Shown: positions 4,849 to 29,247 of the stretch, in pieces
Layout of the letters: every line of letters begins with the position of its first letter
How positions within the stretch are numbered: the first letter of the stretch is position 1
From: Hyphomicrobiales bacterium
Lineage (GTDB): Bacteria; Pseudomonadota; Alphaproteobacteria; Rhizobiales; Beijerinckiaceae
Reading direction: 5' to 3'
DNA: 33,439 nt
Assembly: GCA_027484605.1 (NCBI GenBank)
Contig: JAIXSR010000059.1
Location: 1 to 33,439, forward strand
The notes under the pieces: generated by a model
What the model saw: only the letters and a program-made list of their open reading frames with translations
The model's database searches: none
What the model was told of the DNA's origin: nothing
Made by a program: the position numbers and the translations under genes

Positions 4849-5520
4849 ATGACCGACATGACCGCAGTGATCGTCCCCAAGAGCGACCAGGTGAATGCCG
4901 ATGATCTGATCTCGGGCCCGCGCACCATTCGCATTGCCGGGGTGAAGGTGAGCCCCGGCTCGGAGCAGCCTGTCAGCATCGCGATCGAGGGGGACAGCAA
5001 GGTTTATCGCCCGTGCAAGTCGATGGCGCGCGTGATGGTGGCGGCGTGGGGTGCGGATTCGTCGGCCTATGTCGGCCGGTCCATGACGCTCTACCGTGAC
5101 CCGAAGGTGAAGTGGGGCGGCATGGAAGTCGGCGGCATTCGCATCGCCGCGATGAGCGACATCGAGGGGCCGATGACGATGGCGCTCACCGAGACGCGGG
5201 CGCAGCGCCGGCCGTTCACGGTGAGGCCCCTCGCTGCCTCTGCGCCTGCCACGGCGCGCAAGGGCCCGTCGCCCGATGAATGGGCCGGCGCGTATCAGGA
5301 GCGGGTCGCGGCCTGTGCCACGCTCGACGAGCTGCTCGCGCTGCAACAGGAGCGCGCAAAGGGCCTTTCCACGCTGGCGGAGAAGCGGCCCGACCTGCAC
5401 CGGGCCTGCATCGAGGCCGGAACGAAGCGCGCCGCGGAACTGCGCGGCCCGGATGACGAGGACGACGCCGAGCCCATCGGCGAGGACCAGGACGACATCT
5501 TTGCCGACGCGGCCGACTAG
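4849..5520 (+). CDS. Possible single-strand DNA-binding/recombination partner
   Basis: A 223-residue protein starting 2 nt after the exonuclease stop, the place normally taken by a RecT/Erf annealase or SSB. Residues about 18-110 are rich in predicted beta strands (GPRTIRIAGVKVSPG; VSIAIEGDSKVYRPC; YVGRSMTLYRDPKVKWGG), suggestive of an OB-like barrel. A helical region with ELLALQQERAKGLSTLAEKR follows. The tail is very acidic (GPDDEDDAEPIGEDQDDIFA), as in SSB C-termini that dock partner enzymes. I do not recognise a named family, so the SSB idea rests on position, strand pattern and tail. Confidence 0.55.
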   Translation: MTDMTAVIVPKSDQVNADDLISGPRTIRIAGVKVSPGSEQPVSIAIEGDSKVYRPCKSMARVMVAAWGADSSAYVGRSMTLYRDPKVKWGGMEVGGIRIAAMSDIEGPMTMALTETRAQRRPFTVRPLAASAPATARKGPSPDEWAGAYQERVAACATLDELLALQQERAKGLSTLAEKRPDLHRACIEAGTKRAAELRGPDDEDDAEPIGEDQDDIFADAAD

Positions 5521-5557
5521 CCGCCGGCTCACAGGCATTCTGCGGAAAGGAAAGACG

Positions 5558-6145
5558 ATGACGATCTACACGGGCAAGGTGCGTGGCGACCTGACGCTGC
5601 GCAAGGGCGACGACGCCAGCAAGGTGACGGAGGTAACCGGCGGGCTCTACATCAGCGCCGAGGGTGCGCAGCTGCCGATGCTCACCAGCGTCGGCGGCGG
5701 GCTCGACATCAGCGCCGAGGGTGCGCAGCTGCCGGTGCTCACCAGCGTCGGCGGCTGGCTCTACATCAGCGCCGGCAAGCGCTTCCACGCGCCCCTCCTA
5801 CGCGAGGTCGCCGGCAAGCCCCTCCCCGATCCCGAAGTCGCCGCCGCGCTGCTGCTGGAAGTCGCCAAGGCCGCCACCGCCAGCCCCGACGCGCTCGACA
5901 TGGGCAGGTGGCACTGCGGCACGTCGCACTGCATCGCGGGCTGGGCCGTGCACCTGGCGGCGGGCGGCTACGAGCTCGAAGCTGAGATGGCGAAGAAGGT
6001 CGGCGAGGACAGGAAGACGCTCGCGGCCGGCAATCTCCTGCTCGGCGCCGAGGCGAGCTCGCTGTTCTTCCTCAGCAACGACGCCGGGCGGTCGGCCCTG
6101 CATCGCGTGCTGGAGGGCAAGCCCGCCCTGGAGCCGGCGCAGTGA
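5558..6145 (+). CDS. Beta-solenoid repeat protein with C-terminal CGTxHCxAGW domain
   Basis: A 195-residue protein with RBS AAAGGAAAG before the ATG. Residues about 29-75 contain 19-residue repeats of the type L-(Y/D)-ISAEGAQLP-(M/V)-LTSVGG, typical of short leucine-rich-like beta-solenoids. After residue 80 comes a helical domain with a compact Cys/His motif (RWHCGTSHCIAGWAVHLA, about 117-134) and a following AGNLLLGAEASSLFF segment. The two Cys and two His could bind a metal. The role is unknown. Its place after recombination genes and before uncharacterised early genes suggests a host-directed function. Confidence 0.6.
   Translation: MTIYTGKVRGDLTLRKGDDASKVTEVTGGLYISAEGAQLPMLTSVGGGLDISAEGAQLPVLTSVGGWLYISAGKRFHAPLLREVAGKPLPDPEVAAALLLEVAKAATASPDALDMGRWHCGTSHCIAGWAVHLAAGGYELEAEMAKKVGEDRKTLAAGNLLLGAEASSLFFLSNDAGRSALHRVLEGKPALEPAQ
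5644..5757 (+). repeat. 57-bp tandem repeat, two copies plus partial third
   Basis: Two near-identical 57-bp units (5644-5700, 5701-5757) followed by a truncated third from 5758. Each encodes 19 residues of the solenoid. Their high DNA identity points to recent duplication or slippage and a locus able to change repeat number. Confidence 0.8.
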
Positions 6146-6615
6146 GCGACCTGTTCGGCGAGAGCGCGATCTACGCGGCGGACAAGCTGGCGGAAGCGGC
6201 GCGCGAGGTGGGCCAGCGGCTCAGGGTCTATCCCCGTCTCGTCGAGGCCGGGAAGCTGACCCAGCCCAAGGCGGACCGGCAGATCGCGGTGATGCGCGCG
6301 ATCGAGCGGGACTACACCACGGCGGCCGCGCTTGACCGCCCGCTGGTGAAGGCGCGCCTGGTGCAGTTTTCGCCCGAGTTCCGCGACGATCGGTGCGTCC
6401 TGAGGTTCGACGTCGAGGTTGCGATTGCCGGTCAGGAACGGCCCCGGCTTGCGAACTGCGAGGTCGAGGTCGGCGGCTACGAGCTCGCCGCCATCATCCG
6501 GAGCGCGCGCGATACGCTGGCCCAGATGAACGACACGGGCGGGGAGTGGAAAGAGGGCGACCGCCGCACGGACTGGGCGAGCCCGGGCAATCTTGGACTG
6601 GGAGACGCGGCGTGA
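6142..6615 (+). CDS. Hypothetical early protein
   Basis: A 157-residue soluble protein starting at a GTG overlapping the previous stop (GTGA). The N-terminal 60 residues are helical and charged (AADKLAEAAREVGQRLRVYP; KADRQIAVMRAIERDY). The centre (CVLRFDVEVAIAGQERPRLA) is strand-rich. The end is polar. No family is recognised. The tight overlaps mark it as part of the early operon. Confidence 0.6.
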   Translation: MSDLFGESAIYAADKLAEAAREVGQRLRVYPRLVEAGKLTQPKADRQIAVMRAIERDYTTAAALDRPLVKARLVQFSPEFRDDRCVLRFDVEVAIAGQERPRLANCEVEVGGYELAAIIRSARDTLAQMNDTGGEWKEGDRRTDWASPGNLGLGDAA

Positions 6616-6899
6616 GCGACACCGAAGCAGAGAAGCGCGCCTATGCGAAGGGCTATGCCGCCGGGCGCAAGCGCACCGAAGCCGAAACGGCCGCCGCAGC
6701 GGCTCAATATGAGGAGTCGCAACAGGCACGCCGCCGCTTCAGACAGCAGGCCTTCCTTGCCGCGCTTTCAGGAACTCTGACCAGCCCACGCCAGTGGCGC
6801 AATGGCGAAAAGCCTTGGGTCGGTGTCGAAGACTATGTCCGGGGCTGCTGGAATTTCGCGGACAAGGCGACTGCGCACAACACTGAGCCATTCGCATGA
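6612..6899 (+). CDS. Hypothetical early protein
   Basis: A 95-residue protein with a GTG start in a GTGA overlap. Residues 1-50 form a long charged helix (EAEKRAYAKGYAAGRKRTEA) that could be a coiled coil. The remainder includes SPRQWRNGEKPWVGVEDYVR. The function is unknown. Confidence 0.6.
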   Translation: MSDTEAEKRAYAKGYAAGRKRTEAETAAAAAQYEESQQARRRFRQQAFLAALSGTLTSPRQWRNGEKPWVGVEDYVRGCWNFADKATAHNTEPFA

Positions 6900-7294
6900 C
6901 CAATCAGGGTCGGAAGTTGAAAGGCAGCAATCCGGCTGCCGACGGTGCTTGCAACCATCCCCCGATGGACGCCGCCGTGTCTCACAATCCCCCGCCGGCA
7001 GCAAGCGGCGGGGGGAAAGGCGGGGACTTGCGCCAGGGCGTCACACGCGCCGGGCATGCCGTCCTCGACCAGCTCGAGGCCATTGGCGGCGGCATCGGTG
7101 GCGAGAAGACCGTTCCGGCCCTCGCGCTGAAAGAGGCCCAGCGCATCCTTGCGGCGGCCATCCGCGCCGACCCGGACAACGGCATGGGGCGGCGGCGCAT
7201 CGCCATGTCCCGGGAGGCCGCAGCCCTCATCATTCGCGCCCTGGACAGCATGGACGAGGCCGGGCGCTCCAGCTTCGAAGGGACTGTCGCATGA
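6896..7294 (+). CDS. Hypothetical early protein
   Basis: A 132-residue protein with an ATGA overlap at its start. The first 45 residues are low-complexity (Gly, Pro, Asn, Lys) and probably disordered. Residues 47-130 are helical (GVTRAGHAVLDQLEAIGGGI; LALKEAQRILAAAIRADP; EAAALIIRALDSMDEAGRSS). It is unrecognised and lies immediately upstream of the ParB-like gene. Confidence 0.55.
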   Translation: MTNQGRKLKGSNPAADGACNHPPMDAAVSHNPPPAASGGGKGGDLRQGVTRAGHAVLDQLEAIGGGIGGEKTVPALALKEAQRILAAAIRADPDNGMGRRRIAMSREAAALIIRALDSMDEAGRSSFEGTVA

Positions 7295-8115
7295 CCCCAT
7301 CCATGAACCCGCCGCTTGGCTCACCGCCGACGCTGGAATGGGTGCCGGTGGCATCGATCGGCGTCGATCCGATCTACCAGCGCTCGACCGACAACATGCA
7401 GTCGCAGACGCTGATCCGAAAGATTGCGCGCTTCTGGGACTGGAACCTGTGCCAGCCTCTCGCCCTGGTGAAGCGCGAGGACGGCTCGCTCTGGGCGGTC
7501 GATGGACAGCATAGGCTGGGCGCGGCGAAGCTCCGGGGCGACATTCCCCACCTGCCCTGCGTCATCGCGCGCTATGGCACCCAGGCCGACGAGGCAGCTG
7601 CCTTCGTCGCGCTCAACAAGCAGCGCCGGCCGCTGTCGCCGGTGGATCTGTTCAAGGCCGCACTGGCTGCCGGCGATCCCGAGGCGGACGAGATCATGCG
7701 CGCGATCCGCGGTGCCCAGCTCACCCTCGCCCCGCACTCGAACTACACCGCGTGGGAGCCGGGCCAGATCTTCTGCGTCCCCGGGATCCAGCGGGCATGG
7801 CGCGGGCATGGCGAAAAGGTCGTCCGCAACGCTCTGGTCGCGCTGTCGTGCGGCTTCCATGGGCAGGTGCTTCGCTATGCCGGGCTGCTGCTCGAGGGGC
7901 TCTACGGCTTCTACGCCAGTGACGATGCCAAGCTCGGCAGCTTCGACCCCGACCTGTTCGTCGAGGTTCTGGCAGCGGGCGAACAGGGCGACTGGGTCAA
8001 CGACGCGCGCAAGGTGCAGGTGGAGACGAACCTGAGCCGCGCGGCCTCGATGACCGAAGCGATGTGGCGCGCCTATCGCGAGGCGAGCGAGATGGACGAA
8101 GAGGAAGCAGCGTGA
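7291..8115 (+). CDS. ParB/Srx-type nuclease-fold (DGQHR) protein
   Basis: A 274-residue protein. Residues about 17-92 show the ParB N-terminal/sulfiredoxin-like pattern. VPVASIGVDPIYQR is followed by a region defining 'which partners to use', and then the motif VDGQHRLGAAKLRG, where the H and R are the conserved nucleotide-binding residues. VALNKQRRPLSP follows, as in the DUF6551-type phage relatives. The C-terminal half is helical and lacks the ParB centromere HTH. Relatives act as CTP/ATP-dependent switches or nucleases, and the activity here is not determined. ATGA overlap at the start. Confidence 0.75.
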   Translation: MTPSMNPPLGSPPTLEWVPVASIGVDPIYQRSTDNMQSQTLIRKIARFWDWNLCQPLALVKREDGSLWAVDGQHRLGAAKLRGDIPHLPCVIARYGTQADEAAAFVALNKQRRPLSPVDLFKAALAAGDPEADEIMRAIRGAQLTLAPHSNYTAWEPGQIFCVPGIQRAWRGHGEKVVRNALVALSCGFHGQVLRYAGLLLEGLYGFYASDDAKLGSFDPDLFVEVLAAGEQGDWVNDARKVQVETNLSRAASMTEAMWRAYREASEMDEEEAA

Positions 8116-8483
8116 TGGGGAGGCCGTCTCAGATCGACATCACGAAGCTGGCACACCTGCGGGAAGAAAAATGGCTCTCTTACGGCCAGATTTCCAGGAT
8201 GATGGGCGTCAGCATCGGCGCAATCTCGTGGCAATGCCTGATGCACGGGATAGAGCATCCGTCCAAAGTGACGAGGCTCCGCAAGCCTTCCGGCGGGTTG
8301 GAGCATCGCAACGGATACGTCATTCGGCGCTTCACGGCCGAGGAGGATGCCGAGCTTCTTCGCTTGGCGATGGCGGGGGTCCGCACCAGCGAGATCGCCC
8401 GTAAGCTCGGGCGGAAGGGCAACAGCGTGCGCGGCCGGCTCGCGACGCTGGCCCGACACGATGCCCGGAACGACGTCCAATGA
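8115..8483 (+). CDS. SANT/GcrA-like double helix-turn-helix protein
   Basis: A 122-residue DNA-binding candidate. Residues 10-45 contain one HTH (EKWLSYGQISRMMGVSIGAI). Residues 72-118 contain a SANT/Myb-like unit (FTAEEDAELLRLAMAGVRTS, then EIARKLGRKGNSVRGRLATL). The second unit closely resembles the N-terminal unit of the leftward protein at 864-1442, sharing the x-GNSV-x-R core. The ATG is in a TGATG overlap. It likely regulates transcription of phage or host genes. Confidence 0.7.
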   Translation: MGRPSQIDITKLAHLREEKWLSYGQISRMMGVSIGAISWQCLMHGIEHPSKVTRLRKPSGGLEHRNGYVIRRFTAEEDAELLRLAMAGVRTSEIARKLGRKGNSVRGRLATLARHDARNDVQ

Positions 8484-9211
8484 CCCCCCGCTCCCTCCGC
8501 CGGTTCGACAGCATCCTGCCAGGCGGTCGCCATGTGCAGCTGTCGGCGCTCGATCCTGCCGCCCGAGCTGGCCGCACCATCTTCGGCAACCGGGTGGTCG
8601 AAGCCGGCCAGCCCGAACGCCTGCTGAAGCGCGGGCATCACAGCCGGAAGATCGGCGACGTGGTGCAGAAGGGGAAGTGGCGCGGCATGCCCATCTTCAC
8701 CCTCACCCTCGAGGAGCGCGCCACCTGCCCCCGCACCTGCAAGCAATGGCTCGGGTGCTACGGAAATTCGATGAACTGGGCCGAGCGCCTGGTGCATGGG
8801 CCCGAGCTCGAGGCGCGTCTCTGGCGCGAGCTCGGCAGCCTGCAATCGCGCAACCCGGGCGGCTTCGTGGTGCGCCTGCATGTGCTCGGCGACTTCTACA
8901 GCCTGGCCTATGTCAGCTTCTGGCAACAGGCGCTGGATTGCTACCCGGCGCTCAGGGTGTTCGGCTACACCGCGCACGATCCGGCGCACGGCATCGGCGC
9001 AGCACTCAAGGACATGGCCGACACGGAGTGGGAGCGGTTCGCCCTTCGCTTCTCGGGCTGGGGACTGGCCGAGCGGGGCGCCGAGGTCTTCGCGCACGAG
9101 CCGCCGGCCGACGCAATCCCCTGCCCCGCACAGACCGGAGCGACAGACTGCTGCGCGACATGCGCCTTGTGTTGGGCAACGACGCGCCCGATCGCTTTCA
9201 GGAGGCATTGA
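8480..9211 (+). CDS. GP88-like cysteine-rich phage protein
   Basis: A 243-residue protein resembling the phage Gene product 88 family. The clearest landmarks are the N-terminal Cys motif TCPRTCKQWLGCYG (C83, C87, C93), the core FVVRLHVLGDFYSLAYVSFW (129-148) with GYTAHD (162-167), and a C-terminal cluster C215, C224, C225, C228, C231. The pattern suggests a TIM-barrel-like fold with a metal or iron-sulfur site, but the first motif is CX3CX5C, not the CX3CX2C of radical-SAM enzymes. The biochemical role of the family is not known to me. ATGA overlap at the start. The stop is directly followed by the small pre-integrase gene. Confidence 0.65.
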   Translation: MTPRSLRRFDSILPGGRHVQLSALDPAARAGRTIFGNRVVEAGQPERLLKRGHHSRKIGDVVQKGKWRGMPIFTLTLEERATCPRTCKQWLGCYGNSMNWAERLVHGPELEARLWRELGSLQSRNPGGFVVRLHVLGDFYSLAYVSFWQQALDCYPALRVFGYTAHDPAHGIGAALKDMADTEWERFALRFSGWGLAERGAEVFAHEPPADAIPCPAQTGATDCCATCALCWATTRPIAFRRH

Positions 9212-13638: not shown

Positions 13639-16257
13639 CTAGACCCTGAGGTAGCTCTCGGCGGAAACCGCCGTGACGTTGGCAGCGGTGCGGGTGCCGG
13701 TGGCGCGCACTTCATAGCGCACCCCGCCCGCGCCGCCGTTGGTGAAGGTGCCGGAAGCCGTCGCCACCGTGATGTCGCCCGGACCGCCGCTGTCGGGCAC
13801 GGAGGTGCCGAACGCGGTCCAGGTTCCGCCCTCCACGCGGTATTCAAGGTTGATGTCGGTCGTCGCAGTGCCGGTGTGGTTGCCCGTCAGCTGAGCCTCA
13901 ACGCTCGCCGTCTGCCCCGGCGAAAGCACCACGGAAATCACCGCCGATGTGCTGAATCCCAGCGCGACCTGCTGACCGAAGGCTGCCACGCTCACAGCCT
14001 GCAGCTGGGTCGCGGCCTGCCAGGTGAAGTTGGCCACACTGTCGGGCCGGGTGCCGAGCGAGATCCAGATCGGATTGGCGCCCGCGGGCACGCTGCCGGT
14101 GTCGCCGTACCAGCCCGAGGGCACGCCGGTGCTGGGCGACGGCGTTGAGGGCTGGGTCGCGCTGCGCTTGTAGATCGGCTTGATGCTCTCGCCGTCGGCG
14201 CCATTGTCCAGCGCCTTCACCGCCGCGCTCCATTCGCCGCTCGTGATCGTGTCGCTCGTGCCGCCGTTGCGCGCGCCGGCATAGCGGGACCATGCCGGGT
14301 TGCCGTCTGCCGCCGGAATCGCCAGCGTCCAACCGTTCAGTGCGCCCACCGTGCTTTCGGTGAGCGTGCCGTTGAAGTCGAACACGCTGGAACCGGTCGG
14401 ACCCGCCGGCGCCGTCGCACCGCGCTTCCAGATCGTCACGATGGCAACATTGTCGCCCGCCGCGCCGGCCCCGCCGCCCGTCACCAGCAAGCTCCAGTTC
14501 GCGCTGGGCGGCCGGTTGCCGCCGCTCGAAGTGTGGGCCACGATGCAGCTGTAGGCGTTGCCGCCATCGTTCACGATATCGCCCAGGTCGTAGGCCGTCG
14601 CGGTGGCCCAGTTGCCCCGCGCGACGTTGCGGGTCGCCGCCGCCTCGATGCCCGCCATCAGCCAGCTCGCGGCGAGGCGGTTGTCGTAGGCCACCGGGTT
14701 CACCGGCGCGATGTTGCCCGTCTCGCTGGTCGACCAGGAATAGATGCTGGCCTCCTCCTCGCGCAGCCGCACGTCGACCGCGCCGCTCGCATCGGTCGCG
14801 AGCTGGATCCCTCGCACGCGGAACAGCTTGTTCGTCCACCCGCGCGAGGCCGAGGTCACGGAGACCACCATGTTCTGCCTGAGCAGCCAACCCCGGATGC
14901 CAAGGCGAACCGTGAACTCGCCTTGCTTCGTCGATCGGCGCGCCACCTGCGTCGCGATGCGCTCGGCCCGGCGCACGTCCTGCACCGGCGGCAGTTCCAG
15001 CGTCAGCACCCGCGGCGCCAGCGCGGTGCGGCCGGTCGAGACGTCGGGATAGTCGGCGAGGCTGAACAGCGACGGCGCATCGGGCAGGGTGAAGCGCCCG
15101 CGCACCACCGTGAACTGCTCCGAAAGCTCGGGCTGGGGCTGCCACTCGAACCCGCTCAGGAAATCGTCTTCGTTCAGCGCGACTTCGGCGGTCAGGTCGT
15201 TCACGGCCAGGCGCAGCGCCAGCTTCCCGCCGTCGTGCACCAGCTCGCCGTTCATCGCGTCCAGCAGCTCGGCGATCACGGCGCTGGGGTCGTCGGCGTC
15301 GGTGTAAGCCTTACCCGCCTCGTAGCGCCGGTGCGAGCCGCCCGCGGCCAGGGCCACGCTCTCGTCGCAGATGGCCGCCGCCGCGGCGAAGCTCGGCAGG
15401 TTCAGCCGCGCCGGCGGCACCCCCAGCCCCACGGAGCCAACGCCGTTGATCTTCCAGCCCAGCAGGTAGGCCAGCAGCTGCAGCGCCGGGTTGTTCCCGC
15501 GCGCCACACTGCTCGCGGTGTAGGCCCAGGTGGTGCAGTCGTTCGCGCGCTGGCTGCCCGAGCCGCCCGCCACCGTGCTGTCGCGTGCCGGGTCGTACAC
15601 CGGCATGCCGCGCCCGATCACGGTCCAGCGGCCGGAAATGCCCGAGGCGAAGGGCGACTGGCTCGTCTTGCTGTTGTCCGTCCGCTTCACGCGGACCTTC
15701 ATCGTGGTGCAGCCGGTCATCCGGCGCGTCGAGGCCCAGTTCGCCCCCGCCTCGACGGTGTGATACGCCGCCGCGCCCGCCTCGAGGATGACCTCGACGG
15801 TCAGGTAGCCTACAAAGATGCCCTGCGCCCCACCGCCCGAGGTCCAGGCCAGCTTGTCCTCGATGTAGATGCTCTCGATCGCGTCGCTCTTGTGGGCCGC
15901 GAGCGCAAAGACGTAGCTGATATACTCCTGTTTCGTGTCGCTGCTGGGCTCGGCGTAGCGCAGATCCAGCGGGAAGGCGGTGCGGCCGAACACCAGCTTG
16001 CGCACCGCGGCCTTGTCCGGGTTGACGCTCTTCGGGTCGAACGGCACGAGATTGCCGCCGCGGCGGCCGGAAAGGGAATAGGCGCCCGTCGCGGCATTGG
16101 CCAGGTTGAGGCCCGCTGAAATGAGCGGACCAACGCCGGGGATGAATGCCGCGGCGGTCGAGATCACGCTGAACAGGGCTGCGCCGGCACGCTTGTCGAT
16201 CAGGCTGACGGCTGCCGAGATCGGCGACAGCAGCACGCGCGCGACGGCCTTACCCAT
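13639..16257 (-). CDS. Tail hub/central fibre protein with carbohydrate-binding module
   Basis: An 872-residue host-recognition protein. The N-terminus has hydrophobic Gly/Ala segments (about 27-60). Residues about 70-500 have the strand-rich layout of tail-hub (gp27/J-like) proteins. A CBM5/12-like module follows at about 546-592 (GNWATATAYDLGDIVNDGGN; NRPPSANWSLL), recognised by W550, Y555, Y569 and W588. Repetitive Gly/Ser/Thr-rich segments with WKRG, WSRYAG and WYGDTG continue to about 760. The C-terminal domain is fibronectin-like (about 790-872). It overlaps the DUF6950-like gene by 8 nt. It probably forms the tail tip and binds surface glycans. Confidence 0.8.
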   Translation of the reverse strand: MGKAVARVLLSPISAAVSLIDKRAGAALFSVISTAAAFIPGVGPLISAGLNLANAATGAYSLSGRRGGNLVPFDPKSVNPDKAAVRKLVFGRTAFPLDLRYAEPSSDTKQEYISYVFALAAHKSDAIESIYIEDKLAWTSGGGAQGIFVGYLTVEVILEAGAAAYHTVEAGANWASTRRMTGCTTMKVRVKRTDNSKTSQSPFASGISGRWTVIGRGMPVYDPARDSTVAGGSGSQRANDCTTWAYTASSVARGNNPALQLLAYLLGWKINGVGSVGLGVPPARLNLPSFAAAAAICDESVALAAGGSHRRYEAGKAYTDADDPSAVIAELLDAMNGELVHDGGKLALRLAVNDLTAEVALNEDDFLSGFEWQPQPELSEQFTVVRGRFTLPDAPSLFSLADYPDVSTGRTALAPRVLTLELPPVQDVRRAERIATQVARRSTKQGEFTVRLGIRGWLLRQNMVVSVTSASRGWTNKLFRVRGIQLATDASGAVDVRLREEEASIYSWSTSETGNIAPVNPVAYDNRLAASWLMAGIEAAATRNVARGNWATATAYDLGDIVNDGGNAYSCIVAHTSSGGNRPPSANWSLLVTGGGAGAAGDNVAIVTIWKRGATAPAGPTGSSVFDFNGTLTESTVGALNGWTLAIPAADGNPAWSRYAGARNGGTSDTITSGEWSAAVKALDNGADGESIKPIYKRSATQPSTPSPSTGVPSGWYGDTGSVPAGANPIWISLGTRPDSVANFTWQAATQLQAVSVAAFGQQVALGFSTSAVISVVLSPGQTASVEAQLTGNHTGTATTDINLEYRVEGGTWTAFGTSVPDSGGPGDITVATASGTFTNGGAGGVRYEVRATGTRTAANVTAVSAESYLRV

Positions 16258-21124: not shown

Positions 21125-21508
21125 TCAGTCTCCTTGCGTGTAAAGGGTTCGAAAATCGATGCTTCGGCGATGCAGCGCCGGAATCTCGGGCTCCTGCAGG
21201 TCGATCTCGGAAATGCACTCGGCCCACATGCCGCGCGGCGCGCCGCCCTGCACCGCGACACGAACCGCCGCCGCCAGCGCCACCACGGTGGAATGGTCGT
21301 TGGCGTAGCAATCGACCTGGAACCGGCCCGAGTCCGCCCCCAGCGGGCCGCTCAGCGCCACCATGCCCTGCCCGCTGATCCGCCGCCACACCACAAAGGG
21401 CGGCAGAGGGTCTTGCGGGGCGCGGCCGGGATAGAGCCGCTCCGCCACGATCGAGCGCACCGCCGACACATCGAGCCGGGCGTAAATTTCATCCTCGGCG
21501 CGGGGCAT
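21125..21508 (-). CDS. Tail completion/terminator protein (DUF3168, gp17-like)
   Basis: A 127-residue protein of the DUF3168/HK97 gp17-like family that caps the tail tube before joining to the head. Typical features are AERLYPGRAPQDPLPPFVVW with GRFQVDCYANDHSTVVALAA and VRVAVQGGA. ATGA overlap with the gp10-like gene. Confidence 0.85.
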   Translation of the reverse strand: MPRAEDEIYARLDVSAVRSIVAERLYPGRAPQDPLPPFVVWRRISGQGMVALSGPLGADSGRFQVDCYANDHSTVVALAAAVRVAVQGGAPRGMWAECISEIDLQEPEIPALHRRSIDFRTLYTQGD

Positions 21509-21975
21509 CAGCGGCCACCTTTCGCGCGGCGGCGCGCGGCGGCATCAATCGCTTTGCGCAGCCGGGCCGCCAGCTGGTCCTGCACAACGCCCTCCATCCT
21601 GTCCCACACCGGGCGGAACCAGGGCCGCGCCGGCATGTTCACCGTGCCGAACTCCTGGAACGCGCCCCAGAAGGCCCGGCCCGTCGTCACCATCATCACC
21701 AGCGTGTTGTCCGTCGTCGCCTTTTCCTCGCGCACCCGGATATTGTCTTTCAGCCGGCCATAGTCGGCCTGCGCCGTCGCGCCGCTCTTCAGCCGCCGCT
21801 TCCTCACCGTCGGGCCCGTCCCCACCGGCGCCGCAGCGCGCAGCTCGTTGCGGACCGCCGTGGCCTGCGCGCGAAGCCCGGCCCGGCCCGCCTTGGTCGC
21901 GCCGTCGCCCAGCTCGGCCAGGGCCTTGCGCAGATCCTCCACGCCCTCCACCTGCCACGAGCTTTGCCGCGCCAT
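21508..21975 (-). CDS. HK97 gp10-like neck/tail protein
   Basis: A 155-residue gp10-family (tail-component/head-closure) protein with VEGVEDLRKALAELGDGATK at the start, ELRAAAPVGTGPTVRKRRLK in the middle and FGTVNMPARPWFRPVWDRME near the end (the NMPARPWF motif is typical). The ATG overlaps the stop of the adaptor/beta-helix fusion (ATGA), which sets the start. It is basic and probably bridges the neck and tail. Confidence 0.88.
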   Translation of the reverse strand: MARQSSWQVEGVEDLRKALAELGDGATKAGRAGLRAQATAVRNELRAAAPVGTGPTVRKRRLKSGATAQADYGRLKDNIRVREEKATTDNTLVMMVTTGRAFWGAFQEFGTVNMPARPWFRPVWDRMEGVVQDQLAARLRKAIDAAARRRAKGGR

Positions 21976-24134
21976 CAGCCCGCCCCCGCGGTGCGCAGGT
22001 CGAGCGTCAGGCGGGTCGCGTCGGGGCGGAGGATGTCGCAGCGGTCGGCTTCGATCAGCATGCCGTCGAGGTAGTTGGCGGGGATGATGGTGTTGCCGCC
22101 TTCGGTCCAGGTGGCGCGGTTGTCTGGCGTGCCGTCCTGGTCGTCGATGTCGGGGTGGGCCCAGTTGTTGGTGAAGGTGAAGTTCGAAAGGGTGCGATAG
22201 GTCGCGATCCCGCCCGCGCCGCCCACCGCCATGCAGAGGTTGCGGGTGAAGGTGGCGCCGTCGATCACCCGCGAGCTGTTGAAGCGCACCGCCCACACGC
22301 CGGCCTCGGCCTCTTCCGTCCAGCGCGCAATGAAGACATTGCCGTCGAACACCCGGCCGCTGTCGATCAGCGGGTTGTTCGCGCTGTTCACCTGGATCGT
22401 CATCGGCCGCTCGGCCAGGTACACCAGGTTGTCGACATATTGCGTGTTCGTCTGCCCGGCATAGTTCGACATGCCGTTGGCGTGGACGCCGCCGACCCGG
22501 ATCACGATGTTCATCTCCACCCGGCCGCCCTCGATGTCGCGGCTCGAGGGAATCGCGGTGCCGCCGGCGCCGTCGATCACGTTGTGGTGCACGTGGGTGC
22601 GCAGGCCCTGGTCCGAGATGCCGCCCGTCAGCACCATGTTTTCGAAGCGGTTCCAGGCGAATTCGCTGTCGTTGGTGAAGGTGCCGTCGAGCGCGTGGGT
22701 GTTCCACTGGTCGCGGAAGGTGCAGCCCAGCACCTTCATGCCCGTTTTCCCGCCGCCCGTGCTGGTGAAGCTGACGGGGTTGACGTTGGCAAAGCCGGTG
22801 AAATCGAAGCCGCGCAGCGTGATGTGCGCGCGGGTGCCCGACACGCGCACCGCCTTCCACGTCAGCACGCTGCCGGAATCGATGGCGCGGCGGATCGCGG
22901 TTGAGCCGCGCGTCATCACGATCGCCTTGCCCGGCGCGATCACGGCATAGTTGCCCGGCTCGCTCACGTGCTTCACCGTGCTGAACAGGAACACCTGCGT
23001 GGTCGGCTCGTAGGCGGTGGGGCTGAAGGCGCCGCCGCCCAGCGTCACCGTGTCGCCCACCACCGACGCGATCGGCCGCCGCGCGAACTGCGAGCCTTCC
23101 ACCCATACCCACACCTCGGCCGAGCCGCCCACCTCGCCCGCGGCCTCGGCCGCCAGCGTGGCGTCGGTGATGGTCTGGCTGGCGTTCAGTTGCACGCCGT
23201 CCGCCGCGACGGCAAGGCCGGGCCCGGCGAAGAAGTCGTCGATCAGGTAGGGGTCAAGCGGGCGCGGCCACTGCGAGCGCAGCAGCATGCCGGCCGCGTC
23301 GTACAGCACCGGCTCCTGCCCGTCGTCGGTCCACTCCACCACCCGCATCGCGGGGTCGTTCCAGTTGGTCGCGCCGCCCGCGTCGGCCTGGCTGGTGGGC
23401 AGGCGCACCGTCACGCCGGTCGCGTCCGCCCCGTCGATCAGCGCCTGCGCGCCCGTGCCCCAGGCACAGCCGGAATAGATCACGGGGTTGCCCAGCGCGC
23501 CCGAACCCTGCGGCTCCCATCGGCCGTGGAAGCGCCCGCCGCGCCGGATGGCGATGTGATCGCCCGGCACCGGATTGTAGGCCGCGGCGTTCCCCGTCTC
23601 GCCGTCCATCCCGGGCGCGTGGCGCCAGGTGGTGGCGGGGGTGAGGCCGTCGGCGCTGTCGTCACCGGCGGCCAGGTCGACGTAGCGGGTGATCGCGGGC
23701 AGCAGCGGCAGGCCGCTGACGGAAAGGTCGCCGGCTTCGGCCGCGTGGGAATGGAGCGCGCTGGCAGCGAAAAGCGTGATGGCGGCAACAGCGGCCACGG
23801 CCCCGCTCTCGACGCCCCGCACATAGGCCAGCAGGCTGCCGTTCTTGCGGTCGAACTCGGTGCCGATCGTCTCGTAGGTCGTGCCCCGCCAGCGCAGCCG
23901 CCATTTCGCCGTGATCTGCTCGGTCACGCTGCTGATGCGCATCAGGAAGCGGTAGTCTGCCAGCGATTGCCGGGCATAATCCTCTTCGCTTTCGCGGCGC
24001 TGCAACGGAATGTCGGCGGCCCACACCATGCCGCGCGAGGTGAAGGTCTCGACCTGCTCCCCACGCGTCCCCGACGTCAGCTCGCGACTGAACAGCTCCA
24101 CCCGCTCGCGAAGTTGACCGGCGGAAATTCTCAT
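21975..24134 (-). CDS. Head-tail adaptor fused to right-handed beta-helix
   Basis: A 719-residue protein. Residues 1-107 are a phage head-tail joining/head-completion domain (RISAGQLRERVELFSRELTS; WAADIPLQRRESEEDYARQS; WRLRWRGTTYETIG), normally a complete protein of about 110 residues. A hydrophobic Ala-rich stretch follows (111-128) and ends in HAAEA like a signal-peptide cleavage region. A beta-helix domain then begins at about 148 (RYVDLAAGDDSADGLTPATT) and runs to the end, with many Asn/Gly-turn rungs (VHHNVIDGAGGTAIPSSRDI). No stop or frame break separates the parts. ATGA overlap upstream. An internal GTG at 23822 might also yield the beta-helix alone. Confidence 0.8.
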   Translation of the reverse strand: MRISAGQLRERVELFSRELTSGTRGEQVETFTSRGMVWAADIPLQRRESEEDYARQSLADYRFLMRISSVTEQITAKWRLRWRGTTYETIGTEFDRKNGSLLAYVRGVESGAVAAVAAITLFAASALHSHAAEAGDLSVSGLPLLPAITRYVDLAAGDDSADGLTPATTWRHAPGMDGETGNAAAYNPVPGDHIAIRRGGRFHGRWEPQGSGALGNPVIYSGCAWGTGAQALIDGADATGVTVRLPTSQADAGGATNWNDPAMRVVEWTDDGQEPVLYDAAGMLLRSQWPRPLDPYLIDDFFAGPGLAVAADGVQLNASQTITDATLAAEAAGEVGGSAEVWVWVEGSQFARRPIASVVGDTVTLGGGAFSPTAYEPTTQVFLFSTVKHVSEPGNYAVIAPGKAIVMTRGSTAIRRAIDSGSVLTWKAVRVSGTRAHITLRGFDFTGFANVNPVSFTSTGGGKTGMKVLGCTFRDQWNTHALDGTFTNDSEFAWNRFENMVLTGGISDQGLRTHVHHNVIDGAGGTAIPSSRDIEGGRVEMNIVIRVGGVHANGMSNYAGQTNTQYVDNLVYLAERPMTIQVNSANNPLIDSGRVFDGNVFIARWTEEAEAGVWAVRFNSSRVIDGATFTRNLCMAVGGAGGIATYRTLSNFTFTNNWAHPDIDDQDGTPDNRATWTEGGNTIIPANYLDGMLIEADRCDILRPDATRLTLDLRTAGAG

Positions 24135-26731
24135 GCCGGCACCTCCGCGCCCGCCGCGAAGCTGCCGCTCCGCGCCTCACCGGTGCGGTACACGTCGATC
24201 ACGGCGCGCTGCGCCTTGCCCAGCAGCGGCGAGCCGGCCGCGGGGCGGTAATCGCCGCCGCCGCTGTTCGTGCCGCCGTTGTAGAGCGAGCGGTCGAGGG
24301 TGAAGCCGGGCCACGTGCTGGCCACCCCGGTCGACGGGTTCACCGTGGCGCGCAGGCCGTTGAAGTCATAGTCGAAGGCGCTGGAAGTCGGGTGCCGCTC
24401 GGCCAGCACATTGCCTTCATATTCGACGCCGTAGAGCACGGCCCAGCTGCCGATCTGCGCGCCATCGAGCTGGAACACGTCGTGTTTCGTCGGCAGCCAG
24501 TCGAACACGCAGTTGCGGATCGAGTTGCCCACGTGGCGGTTCGTGTCGCCCGCGGCCGGCGCGCCGGGCGGGTCGGAATAGCCGTAATTGAAGCGCTCCC
24601 CGATGTAGGTGCAGCCCTCCACCAGGCAGTCAACGCTTTCCTCCCAGCTGCCTTCGCCGCACTGGTGCATGGGGGCGGTGTCGGGAATTCCGCTGTCGGC
24701 AAAGCTCGAGCGCTCGATCACGTTGTTCACATGGTTGTTGCGCACCGCCTGCCGGTGGTCGGCCAGCGTGCCGGCGCCGTTGTAGCCGAAGGCAAAGCCG
24801 CTGTTCGCGATCGGCGTGGCCCGGCAGCCCCACAGGAAGGTATCGGCGTTCGCGCCTTCGCTGCCCGCGGGGGGCGAGCTCCAGCCCGAGCGGAACCCGG
24901 CCTGGTTCGTGGTGACGGTGGCGTCGGCGATGAACTGCGTGGTGATGGTGCAGGGGCTGTCGCAGTTGCGGATGACTTCGCAGTTGCGCACCAGGCCGAA
25001 GCGCCGGTTCAGGCCCGTCAGGCCGCCGCCGTAGCGCCACCAGCGCGAGCGCGTCATCGACATGCCGGAACGGCCCGCCGGCATGCTGCCGTGCAGGCCC
25101 GTCGTCGCCGTCTCCGAACCCGCCTTGCCGCGCAGTGTGCAGTTGTCGAAGTGGATGTAGAGCAGCCCGATCGGGAGAGAGGTGCCACCCATCTCGAAGC
25201 TCAGGTTGCGCCACAGCCAGCGGTCGATCCGCCCCTGGTGCGACGGGCCCGTCTGGATGATGCAGTTCGTGCGCCGATCTGCGTCGTCGGGATCGCCCTG
25301 CAGGATGGCGCGGCACTCCGCCGCTTGCAGTCCCGTCGTAGGGGCGGTGCTGGTCCAGGTGTGCGTGCCAGCCTTCAGCGTGATCACAGCATTGTCGGCG
25401 GCGCGGGTGATGCTGCTGCGCCCGTTCGCCGCGGCGATGGTGCGGTTGGCGAGGTAGATGGCCTGGAGCGCGGTGTTCCAGTTCGCCGCCCGGCTCGCCA
25501 CCGGCACGATCGCGGGGTTCTTGGCGTCGGCCAGCGTCGCCTGCACCATCGCCGCGCTCGCCGTGGTGGTGCCGGCCGGGTCGATATAGACATGGGCTTC
25601 GGGGTAGCGCGTGCCCGCCGGATCCCACGCCACGTGCAGCGGCGAAAGCGCGTCGACGGAAAGGCCGGCGAAATTGTCGGTGCTGTGCGCGTTGCCGGTG
25701 CGGCGCATCGCGCCCACCCACGGATAGACCTCGGCATGAACCGAGATCAGGCCCGCCGTCAGGCCGGTCGGGTTCAGGGTCGCGCCCCAGCAGCGCAGGT
25801 TGTCGCCGTAAAGGGTGGAGGTGGAGGGGGCATCGACCCACACCTCGTGCGTGTTCGTGCCGTCATAGGCCACGAACTTCACCGCCGCCACCGCGCCCAG
25901 CCCCTCGGCCAGGATGTGCGACACCAGCAGGTCGACACGGAACGCCCCGGTCGCGCGCATGTAGCTGGGTTGCGCCCAGCGGAAGCTGGGCAGCGGCGCG
26001 GCCTTGGCGCTGTTGTTGGTGACGGTCAGTCCTACCTGCGCGCCCAGCCCAGCGCGCCAGTTCGATGCGAAGGTGGCCGTCACCACCTCGCCCGGGTGAA
26101 TGTGCCGCGAAAGCGCGATGCGCAGCTTGCGCACCCCGCCGCCCAGGTCGGTTTCCTCCAGCGCCGTCTGGTTGGGATGGGGCCGCCGCAGCGGCTTCGT
26201 GCCCACGATGCTGCCGCGGTTGCGCGACGGCGCGGCCACGGCCTGGCCACCGCTCCGGTTGAAGCCCGCCGCCGTTGCCGTCACGGCAATGCGCGGCGAG
26301 CCATCCGGGTCAGCCACGATGTCACCGAAGGCGGAGGCGCCCCAGCTCCCCGTGACGGCCAGCACCCACCCGCTCGCTTCGACTTCGACGGCCGTGATCG
26401 CGCCACCGGCCACGCCAAGCGCGCCGTCCCCGGCCACGTGCAGGTGGAACGCGGAGTCGGGCGCCATGTTCACCGCACCCAGCGTCAGCGAACCCTCGCC
26501 CGCGAAATGCAGGTGGAACGCCGAGGCCGGGAACAGGTCGGGCGCGTCGATCGAAAGCGAGCCGGCGCCCACCTCGTTCAGGTGGAACGTGGAGTCGGGC
26601 GCAAGCGCGAAGTCGCCGGCCGCCCACACCCGAACGTCCGGGCCAGGGAAGCTTAGGCGTCGACCGCCTGAAGAGGTGTAGCTGGGCACGGGCGCTTCAG
26701 CTCGGATCGCGGATTTCGATGTCCCACGCAC
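24131..26731 (-). CDS. Large right-handed beta-helix structural protein (spike)
   Basis: An 866-residue protein. Residues about 44-112 contain three repeats of the type P-x-S-x-FHL-x-(G)-x-G-(S/A)-L. A strand-rich domain spans about 115-330 (GVRKLRIALSRHIHPGEVVT). A beta-helix from about 375 to 840 starts with YPEAHVYIDPAGTTTASAAM and has typical rungs (CEVIRNCDSPCTITTQFIAD; SIRNCVFDWLPTKHDVFQLD). It ends with DYRPAAGSPLLGKAQRAVID. Such folds often bind or cut polysaccharides; no catalytic set was identified. It sits between the connector and adaptor genes, unusual for a spike. A GTG at 26689 just after the previous stop is an alternative start. Confidence 0.78.
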   Translation of the reverse strand: MRGTSKSAIRAEAPVPSYTSSGGRRLSFPGPDVRVWAAGDFALAPDSTFHLNEVGAGSLSIDAPDLFPASAFHLHFAGEGSLTLGAVNMAPDSAFHLHVAGDGALGVAGGAITAVEVEASGWVLAVTGSWGASAFGDIVADPDGSPRIAVTATAAGFNRSGGQAVAAPSRNRGSIVGTKPLRRPHPNQTALEETDLGGGVRKLRIALSRHIHPGEVVTATFASNWRAGLGAQVGLTVTNNSAKAAPLPSFRWAQPSYMRATGAFRVDLLVSHILAEGLGAVAAVKFVAYDGTNTHEVWVDAPSTSTLYGDNLRCWGATLNPTGLTAGLISVHAEVYPWVGAMRRTGNAHSTDNFAGLSVDALSPLHVAWDPAGTRYPEAHVYIDPAGTTTASAAMVQATLADAKNPAIVPVASRAANWNTALQAIYLANRTIAAANGRSSITRAADNAVITLKAGTHTWTSTAPTTGLQAAECRAILQGDPDDADRRTNCIIQTGPSHQGRIDRWLWRNLSFEMGGTSLPIGLLYIHFDNCTLRGKAGSETATTGLHGSMPAGRSGMSMTRSRWWRYGGGLTGLNRRFGLVRNCEVIRNCDSPCTITTQFIADATVTTNQAGFRSGWSSPPAGSEGANADTFLWGCRATPIANSGFAFGYNGAGTLADHRQAVRNNHVNNVIERSSFADSGIPDTAPMHQCGEGSWEESVDCLVEGCTYIGERFNYGYSDPPGAPAAGDTNRHVGNSIRNCVFDWLPTKHDVFQLDGAQIGSWAVLYGVEYEGNVLAERHPTSSAFDYDFNGLRATVNPSTGVASTWPGFTLDRSLYNGGTNSGGGDYRPAAGSPLLGKAQRAVIDVYRTGEARSGSFAAGAEVPA

Positions 26732-27068
26732 CGAAGCTCATCGTGCCGCCCGCCGTCAGCGCCTGCGAAGGGCAAGTCGTCACGTAGAGAAGCAGGCTGT
26801 TCGTCGTGTCGAGAATGGCGATGTGGTTGCCCGTGCCGCTGGCGGTGATCGCCACGCCTGTCTTCGCCGCCACCGTTGCGCGCCTGCCCGAGGTGAGGCC
26901 GTTGGCGATGGCATAGTCGCCTGGCGCCATCGCAACGCTGGCCAGTTTCGCCGACTGCGCCGCGGCGTAGCTCGCCGGCTCCGAGGGTAGGGCAACCATC
27001 AGGTTCCCCTGGTTCCTGATGATGTTCAGCGCGCCGTCCAGCACGGCGTCGCCAACCTGTTTGGCCAT
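26697..27068 (-). CDS. Virion structural/decoration-like protein
   Basis: A 123-residue protein with CGGAGACTGCA before the ATG. The sequence starts AKQVGDAVLDGALNIIRNQG. It continues with VAMAPGDYAIANGLTSGRRA, VAITASGTGNHIAILDTTN, LLLYVTTCPSQALTAGGTMS and FGAWDIEIRDPS, a pattern recurring in siphophage connector regions. The strand-rich trimer-like layout suggests a capsid or neck decoration or spike-base protein. The exact role is unknown. Confidence 0.65.
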   Translation of the reverse strand: MAKQVGDAVLDGALNIIRNQGNLMVALPSEPASYAAAQSAKLASVAMAPGDYAIANGLTSGRRATVAAKTGVAITASGTGNHIAILDTTNSLLLYVTTCPSQALTAGGTMSFGAWDIEIRDPS

Positions 27069-28023: not shown

Positions 28024-29247
28024 TCAGGTGGCGGAGTTCTGGTAGAACTTCACCGCCCCGCCGTTGTCGATCAGGTTGCCGCCCGAGCGCATCCAGGCGT
28101 TGAAACCCACCTGCGCCTTCTTGGCGTAGGCGGAGTCGTCGTAGCGCTGCAGCAGCACTTCCATCACGTCGCGGATCTGGTACTCGGCGAGCGCACCGAA
28201 GATGATCGAGCGCGCGTTCGCCGCCATCACCGCCATCGAGTTGTTCACCACGACGGGATACCCCATGATGGTGTTCAGGCGCGTCGGTGCGCCGGCGCCG
28301 GCCAGGTCGCGGGCGAAGATCGGCAGGCCGGCCGTGTCCTTGATCTTGCGGACCTGGCGGAGGGCCAGATCGTTCATCATGAACGCGGCATCGGGGCGGC
28401 GGCGGTATTCGACATCGACCGAATGCTCCAGGTCCACCAGGTCATCATAGACCACGCTGGTCGTCTGGCCGGTGGCGCCCACCTTGCCAGAGGTTGCGGC
28501 GGTCACGATGCCGGTGGGCTGGCTGGTGCCGGTGCCCGTGGTGAAGTGGTTGTTCTGGATGCGACCCAGGCGGGTGATCAGGCGCCGCGTCACGAACGCT
28601 TCGACATCCACCTGGCTGTCCTGCAACAGCTGGATCGACACCGGAACCACGAGCGACGAGTACATGAAGACCGGCAGGGCGATCTGCGTGAAGGTCGGGT
28701 CGAGGTCGGTGGCGGCGGTGTTTTCCGCAACGATCGCGCCCAGCTCGGTCGTGCCGTTGCTGGCCGGGATGAGGTACGGGTTGCCGCCTTCGGTGCGCAG
28801 GATGGTGGCCACCTCGCGCATGCCGCCGAAGGCGAGCAGGGCGTCGAGAATGTAGGTCGCCACGTCCGACTGGACAGTGAAGCCGCCCGCCGTGGTCGTG
28901 CCCACGGAAAGGTCGTTGCGGAAGGCCTTGCGCTCGTCGGCGTCCAGCGCGTTGTCGCCGAACTTGGCCCACTTGATGAACGCCCGCTGCGAAGCGCTCA
29001 GGCTCTTGCCGCTATCCCTCACGCGCTGCTCCACGCGTTCGGCCACGACGCCGCCCTCGTTCGCCTCGAAGGCCAGCTCATTCGCCTTCTGCATGCGGTC
29101 GATGCGGGCCTCGAGGTTGTTCACCTCGTCAACCATGGCATCGAACTCGCTGTTGTGCTTGGCGGGGTCGTAGTCCGTACGGTTCGCCAGTTCCTTCAGC
29201 GCATTTGCCTTCGCCGCGCGCTGTTCGCGGAGAGCTTGGATGCTCAT
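28024..29247 (-). CDS. Major capsid protein, HK97 fold
   Basis: A 407-residue capsid protein. Residues 1-100 form the helical scaffold-like delta domain (IQALREQRAAKANALKELAN; VDEVNNLEARIDRMQKANEL), expected to be cut by the upstream protease. The mature HK97 fold follows (TAGGFTVQSDVATYILDALL; GGMREVATILRTEGGNPYLI; RLGRIQNNHFTTGTGTSQPT; GIVTAATSGK). It ends GNLIDNGGAVKFYQNSAT. SD GGAGATGG precedes the ATG. GC hairpins lie on both sides. Confidence 0.95.
   Translation of the reverse strand: MSIQALREQRAAKANALKELANRTDYDPAKHNSEFDAMVDEVNNLEARIDRMQKANELAFEANEGGVVAERVEQRVRDSGKSLSASQRAFIKWAKFGDNALDADERKAFRNDLSVGTTTAGGFTVQSDVATYILDALLAFGGMREVATILRTEGGNPYLIPASNGTTELGAIVAENTAATDLDPTFTQIALPVFMYSSLVVPVSIQLLQDSQVDVEAFVTRRLITRLGRIQNNHFTTGTGTSQPTGIVTAATSGKVGATGQTTSVVYDDLVDLEHSVDVEYRRRPDAAFMMNDLALRQVRKIKDTAGLPIFARDLAGAGAPTRLNTIMGYPVVVNNSMAVMAANARSIIFGALAEYQIRDVMEVLLQRYDDSAYAKKAQVGFNAWMRSGGNLIDNGGAVKFYQNSAT

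Follow-up and report, generated by a model that had tools for sequence, protein, structure and literature searches.

The gp12 protein of phage phi29 is a beta-helix. Twelve gp12 trimers form the collar spikes of this phage, which digest wall teichoic acid (PMC9863714). In TP901-1-type phages, the neck passage structure (NPS) consists of elongated, neck-anchored proteins with carbohydrate-binding modules at their end, and the paper states that how the NPS attaches to the neck is unknown (PMC10747895). A neck ring holds fibers in cyanophage A-1(L) (PMC10966104). For the neck rings themselves, in the RcGTA structure the stopper is hexameric and lies between an adaptor of twelve subunits and a terminator of six, with the stopper C terminus in contact with the terminator (PMC7296036), and the TP901-1 model likewise seats six stoppers on twelve adaptors (PMC10747895).

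Here we describe a locus in which the stopper (head-closure protein, Hc1) and a beta-helix-type domain form a fusion protein of 719 residues, encoded in a single frame on the minus strand (24134-21975). The window, by which we mean the whole stretch of DNA that was analyzed, is an entire contig of 33,439 bases from a 4.0-Mb genome in 171 contigs. Its gene cluster has a siphophage-like order: large terminase, portal, protease, capsid, an 84-residue gene, adaptor (Ad1), a 123-residue gene, an 866-residue gene, the fusion, a gp10-like gene, terminator, and tail tube. The large terminase, portal, and protease were named by reading their translations and from gene order. The features needed below are as follows.

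21125..21508, minus strand: tail terminator/completion protein (PF11367, E 2.3e-14).
21508..21975, minus strand: HK97 gp10-like neck/tail completion protein (PF04883, PHROG 5).
21975..24134, minus strand: Hc1-beta-helix fusion protein P0001, 719 residues (open reading frame and translation).
21978..23732, minus strand: beta-helix-type domain of P0001, residues 135-719, with homology demonstrated for 146-572 (profile match).
23733..23804, minus strand: hydrophobic, signal-peptide-like linker of P0001, residues 111-134, last residues A-E-A (hydrophobicity, predicted helix, homolog N termini).
23814..24134, minus strand: complete head-closure (stopper, Hc1) domain of P0001, residues 1-107.
24131..26731, minus strand: separate putative spike gene, 866 residues, with N-terminal stalk-like repeats; start uncertain.
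26697..27068, minus strand: small 123-residue protein adjoining the spike genes, 41% identical over 86 residues to its counterpart in the related contig L009.
27085..27636, minus strand: head-tail adaptor (Ad1, gp6-like), separate in the window (PF05135, E 1.4e-9; PHROG 442, E 3.7e-28).
28024..29247, minus strand: HK97-fold major capsid protein (MCP), the query for relatives (PF05065, E 5.2e-63).

The N-terminal part of P0001 matched PF05521 at 43.1 bits, above the curated cutoff of 25, and PHROG 25 at an E value of 4e-11, and its residues 4-113 aligned with SPP1 gp16 across the full length of gp16. The NCBIfam equivalog model for gp16_SPP1 (TIGR01563) scored 16.8 bits (E 0.0055), below its cutoff of 20.6, and P0001 is therefore not filed there. 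Structure prediction of this part returned a complete stopper fold followed by a helix at residues 113-133; by profile and predicted fold, residues 1-113 are thus a complete stopper. The original prediction had read P0001 as a neck ring protein, complete within residues 1-107, whose frame continues into a beta-helix, and both halves of that reading stand (PF05521, the gp16 alignment, and the C-terminal profile match at E 1.8e-25 described below). The ring, however, had been taken for the adaptor and is here reassigned to the stopper; Ad1 is a separate gene. As is usual for PF05521 stoppers such as SPP1 gp16 and RcGTA g7, gp10-like and terminator genes lie downstream. The order Ad1-Hc1-x-terminator is kept, but two extra genes lie between Ad1 and Hc1, a departure from usual stopper loci that gives an Ad1-Hc1 distance of 3, whereas the published neck gene spacing tolerates a distance of 2 (PMC4362835). 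A second departure is length: the solved stoppers matched have about 90-140 residues, but P0001 continues in frame for 612 residues past residue 107.

The start of this extension is the most hydrophobic part of P0001 (maximum at residues 111-127), as expected from the hydrophobic, signal-peptide-like linker that had been predicted. Seventeen hydrophobic residues are followed by HSHAAEA-G, which by reading is the layout of a Sec signal peptide, and the predicted helix at residues 113-133 has a pLDDT of 60-80. For the domain beyond the linker, searches with P0001 of samples of 298 genomes of the same family, 397 of the same order, and 385 of the same class returned, beyond the window, partial matches only: three in G180 (another genus of the same family) and one each in G053, G1017, and G933. 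The G053 match was dropped, as its locus has no neck profile match and its frames read as a transporter region, and the one in G933 is an unremarkable short frame (125 codons). All three G180 proteins (L002, L004, and L005) contain PF13229 (Beta_helix), and a profile built from these three alone matched P0001 at residues 146-572 with an E value of 1.8e-25, with none of 200 shuffles reported up to E 10. In Pfam (up to E 0.1), only PF05521 was found in P0001, with no direct match to PF13229, and for that reason we call the C-terminal part beta-helix-type and do not file it as PF13229. The AlphaFold model of this part has a mean pLDDT of 31, from an alignment of six rows. A profile that includes P0001 gave the only solved-structure matches, which are weak (E 0.0047-0.0078), cover the initial part of the domain, and fall on PL6 alginate lyases. 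The beta-helix fold of the C-terminal part is thus assigned by homology; of the predicted right-handed beta-helix, relatedness to PF13229 proteins holds, and a direct family match does not.

Further relatives of the C-terminal part are encoded on eight viral contigs, of which two duplicate others and one was unmatched by the profile; the five read were L143, L144, L146, L149, and L150. A profile of five phage homologs reached only residues 148-243, about the first hundred of the C-terminal part (E 1.3e-14). The P0001 linker aligned with the signal-peptide-like N termini of most homologs read. In L002 and L004 such a segment stands immediately ahead of a shared (T/R)YYVD...HAPG stretch, and in the listed open reading frame of L005 it is absent; four of the five viral-contig homologs (L143, L144, L146, and L150, with L149 the exception) have the same lead. 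The linker resembles a signal peptide left over from a beta-helix protein, and the suggestion that the beta-helix came from a secreted protein has gained ground from finding such N termini at the same place in two of three bacterial-genome homologs and four of five viral-contig homologs. By gene content, the four homolog loci examined (L143, L144, L149, and L151) are phage structural regions: in L144, a head protease and a capsid-like protein are encoded downstream of the homolog; the L149 homolog neighbors a protein whose beta-helix match falls slightly under the Pfam cutoff; the L143 homolog lies near a YadA-head-like protein; and the surroundings of L002 (L151) are a Mu-like prophage with a tail-fiber protein. 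The signal-peptide-like starts of beta-helix proteins in phage or prophage regions (L143, L144, L146, L150, L002, and L004, with surroundings examined for L143, L144, and L002) are odd for virion parts, and these proteins may be secreted.

Such a segment would likewise be unexpected in a virion protein that stays in the cytoplasm throughout, and one alternative is that the gene has two products, the fusion and a free, secreted beta-helix enzyme made from an internal start or by signal peptidase cleavage after A134. The Sec-like layout of the linker and the leads of most homologs fit this alternative. The internal start first proposed for a free form, the GTG at 23822, turned out to be weakly supported at best: its Shine-Dalgarno energy of -2.0 is background (random median, -2.6). 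The GTG at 23798 (residue 113) is middling at -5.3, stronger than the starts of some ordinary window genes, such as the portal (-2.1) and gpJ-like (-3.7) genes, but about a quarter of random sites reach a similar strength (25th percentile, -4.9), and starting there would leave the hydrophobic stretch without a preceding charged n-region. We regard a dual product as unlikely, while the fusion may be present in just a fraction of the subunits, or there may be a free form.

It is quite unlikely, in our judgment, that the locus is really two genes whose separating stop, at the end of Hc1, was lost, either through an error in sequencing or assembly or because this prophage mutated recently, leaving a nonfunctional fusion. 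The junction falls exactly where a normal Hc1 ends, a single substitution would turn GAG codon 109 into a stop, three annotated relatives have a separate Hc1 of 108-112 residues, and C-terminal extensions of Hc1 are normally short. However, the Hc1 part and the C-terminal part are one coding frame throughout: third-position G+C is 0.81-0.96 along the whole fusion frame, with its minimum in Hc1 (0.81-0.89) and values of 0.93-0.96 over most of the C-terminal part, compared with 0.66-0.92 for 13 other cluster genes. The fusion ATG, which overlaps the stop codon of the 866-residue gene before it, has a strong Shine-Dalgarno sequence (energy, -10.8), and the fusion stop codon overlaps the gp10 ATG. 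A separate downstream gene would need its own start, and only weak ones lie near the junction, which argues against it only moderately because some ordinary genes are equally weak. An assembly substitution at precisely this site is a priori unlikely, and a second C-terminal Hc1 fusion is strongly supported (see below). In the sequence, the in-frame fusion of a complete stopper to a beta-helix-type domain is confirmed, and a lost stop looks unlikely.

To place this fusion among other stoppers, we assembled a survey of 108 loci, including the window, from capsid-based searches (one of which kept the best 80 of 299) and three annotated phages, and scored it with our own neck profiles. Of these, 81 contain Hc1 with a closed 3' end and represent 67 distinct domain sequences, the window included; the window extends 625 residues past the profile match and the other 80 extend at most 28. 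The extension is 1-4 residues in thirty additional Hc1 loci of the same bacterial family and 14 residues in another two viral loci, and the second Hc1 of the window's own genome (G000:C82) is normal. Long Hc1 frames were taken up from searches with PF05521 in three overlapping genome samples (298 from the family, 372 from the class, and 239 from the phylum); all frames of more than 300 codons among the matches listed were measured, along with some shorter ones, and a few of 250-300 codons were left out. Of the 27 such loci measured, 26 extend 2-12 residues and, among the matches listed, one, on contig C34 of genome G812, extends 605. Hc1 is therefore C-terminally fused in 2 of 140 measured loci (the window and G812), a count that is not a rate, with 27 loci picked by length and some near-duplicates. 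The long Hc1 frames checked elsewhere were nearly all spurious upstream extensions in G+C-rich DNA, and N-terminal extensions in the survey are unreliable for the same reason. No relative of the whole of P0001 was found in 50,697 phage records or in peptide-pattern scans of genome and viral contigs, and none of these searches returned its exact type of fusion in another phage. Two other viruses have comparable fusions, one of Hc1 (L165) and one of Ad1 (L009).

The second Hc1 fusion, of 709 residues, lies on a viral contig of G812, a genome of another family in the same class (L165, 1651-3780, minus strand). It consists of a PF05521 domain (residues 4-104, E 8.9e-25), about 140 residues of leucine-, alanine-, and glycine-rich repeats (by reading), and a Laminin_G_3 domain (residues 295-420, E 9.4e-13), and it is located between Ad1 and gp10, surrounded by capsid, Ad1, a 150-residue open reading frame, gp10, and terminator. 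An IMG/VR contig of the same size as the G812 contig (L189) encodes a protein 100% identical to it, and a separate contig (L190), which stops short of the junction, encodes a segment 90% identical to its C-terminal 210 residues, with gp10 and terminator next. The alignment of this protein with P0001 is limited to the Hc1 part (E 6e-5), from which we infer that C-terminal fusion of Hc1 arose at least twice.

A neck ring fusion of another kind is found in a close relative, the IMG/VR contig L009, whose MCP is 69% identical to that of the window and whose Hc1 is separate, at 110 residues. Here, a 1,071-residue frame (5737-8952, plus strand) has the Ad1 adaptor (PF05135, residues 892-933; TIGR02215, residues 885-1067, E 1.5e-20) at the C-terminal end of a spike-like part of about 885 residues. 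Ahead of the adaptor are a front part with a GQSG motif, which we take to resemble that of carbohydrate esterases, and then two or three repeats. The front part has no library match; it is related to an open-ended open reading frame of 448 residues that occupies the corresponding position in L119 (a Sphingomonadales MAG). We accepted this N-terminal extension because the adaptor ends a 1,071-residue frame whose third-position bias is good along most of the examined portion and because the front part has a relative. A free adaptor may possibly also be made from the GTG at residue 887 (energy, -6.2). In two other close relatives, the large neck-interval open reading frames are separate genes, of 675 residues with a He_PIG domain (L041) and of about 1,295 residues without a Pfam match (L042). 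Across the 69 loci with a complete interval from capsid to gp10 or terminator, an open reading frame of at least 400 residues is present in this interval in every one of the four whose MCP identity exceeds 60% (window, L009, L041, and L042; fairly counted, three of three, because the window was the starting point) and in 7 of 65 more distant loci, including two near-duplicate pairs. The fusion gene is not beside the tip protein gene gpJ but between the 866-residue gene and gp10. No spike-sized open reading frame follows the window's gpJ-like gene (13639-16257), the largest on the minus strand down to 11600 having 213 residues, and none on the same strand follows that gene in the stretches covered of L158 and L161. 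We infer that the spikes of this lineage sit in the neck module. Elsewhere in the survey, L053, L055, L057/L060, L092/L096, L110, and L133 have open reading frames of 441-857 residues in the interval from capsid to Hc1, with no convincing Pfam match; these are candidate neck or head decorations.

The 866-residue protein encoded next to the fusion matches neither Pfam nor PHROG at E values up to 0.1, and its residues 237-383 are 27% identical to the L042 neck-interval protein (E 2e-4). Its N terminus carries repeats of about 23 residues of the FHLHFAGEGSLTL type, and its GTG start at 26731 overlaps the small gene. We considered whether it and P0001 are duplicates and rejected this, the best mutual match being only E 0.015 over 41 residues. 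A small protein of 123-130 residues lies beside short stalk-like repeat proteins in three settings (window 26697-27068, L009:5291-5683, and L072:19835-20182), in L072 directly after a 1,377-residue gene that reads as tape-measure-like; it is possibly a partner of stalk-repeat proteins. In the left part of the window, an open reading frame at about 5276-6145 (plus strand) contains repeated GGLYISAEGAQLPMLTSVGG-like units, a short solenoid-like repeat.

We propose, with a probability of roughly 0.6, that the stopper of this phage carries a host-surface-acting spike covalently on its C terminus. Stopper subunits would assemble into a six-fold ring between adaptor and tail terminator, and the C-terminal extension of each would project a beta-helix sideways from the neck, where these domains would bind or cut host surface polysaccharide at adsorption; about six copies are expected because the stopper is described as a hexamer. 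The adjacent 866-residue protein could serve as a second, noncovalent neck spike, and the L009 adaptor fusion could present up to twelve projecting domains. Because the RcGTA stopper C terminus contacts the terminator, a large C-terminal domain could clash, and the linker would have to direct the chain outward. Presence in virions, projection from the neck, and a polysaccharide target are predictions of this model. The idea of a collar appendage, already part of the original prediction, is strengthened by the L165 and L009 fusions; with the window, modules appear to have been joined to neck rings at least three times. It is possible, and we hold this tentatively, that the stopper and adaptor rings are recurrent covalent mounts for beta-helix, lectin, and esterase-like modules, such that six- and twelve-fold sets replace tail-tip spikes in some siphophages, reading and digesting the surface, and tools are swapped by gene fusion. 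That the C-terminal part is instead a structural collar stabilizing the neck, like the collar rings of phage 7-7-1, is very unlikely: scaffold-like collars have been described and no catalytic site was identified in the C-terminal part, but it is homologous to beta-helix proteins that mostly have signal-peptide-like starts and weakly to PL6 lyases, and the parallel L165 fusion carries a lectin-type domain.

The covalent stopper spike proposed here has consequences beyond this locus. Anchoring on the stopper fixes the expected copy number and permits a single-gene test, and it suggests that surface enzymes could be displayed on siphophage particles via the neck ring. An annotation that ends at "head closure protein" can miss host-interaction genes. 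The fusions point to the neck as a mounting place for phage host-surface tools. A different arrangement is seen in VarioGold, which has related head genes (MCP 42.7% identical) and a pectate-lyase-like tail spike, VG_p19 (pectate-lyase superfamily); its spike gene follows the tip protein gene J, whereas the spike-like genes of the window are in the neck module. Like phi29 gp12, P0001 would place surface-acting spikes at the collar, but phi29 is short-tailed, and its gp12 trimers are made from a protein of their own that is not covalently part of a neck ring. In A-1(L), a contractile phage, the fibers are separate proteins (gp82/81/80) on a 15-fold ring, and the text available describes no fusion (PMC10966104). 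The TP901-1 NPS is also a separate protein, whereas for P0001 the proposed anchor is the stopper itself; a stopper chain running into the appendage would by construction settle how attachment works in this phage. Searches of open-license PMC papers listed no title or abstract opening that describes a spike fused to a stopper or an adaptor. Neck appendages are thus already known, in the accounts available, as separate proteins (phi29 gp12, the TP901-1 NPS, and the A-1(L) fibers); P0001 is one frame with Hc1, with its neck position predicted from the Hc1 domain, and this stopper-fused form is what appears to be new.
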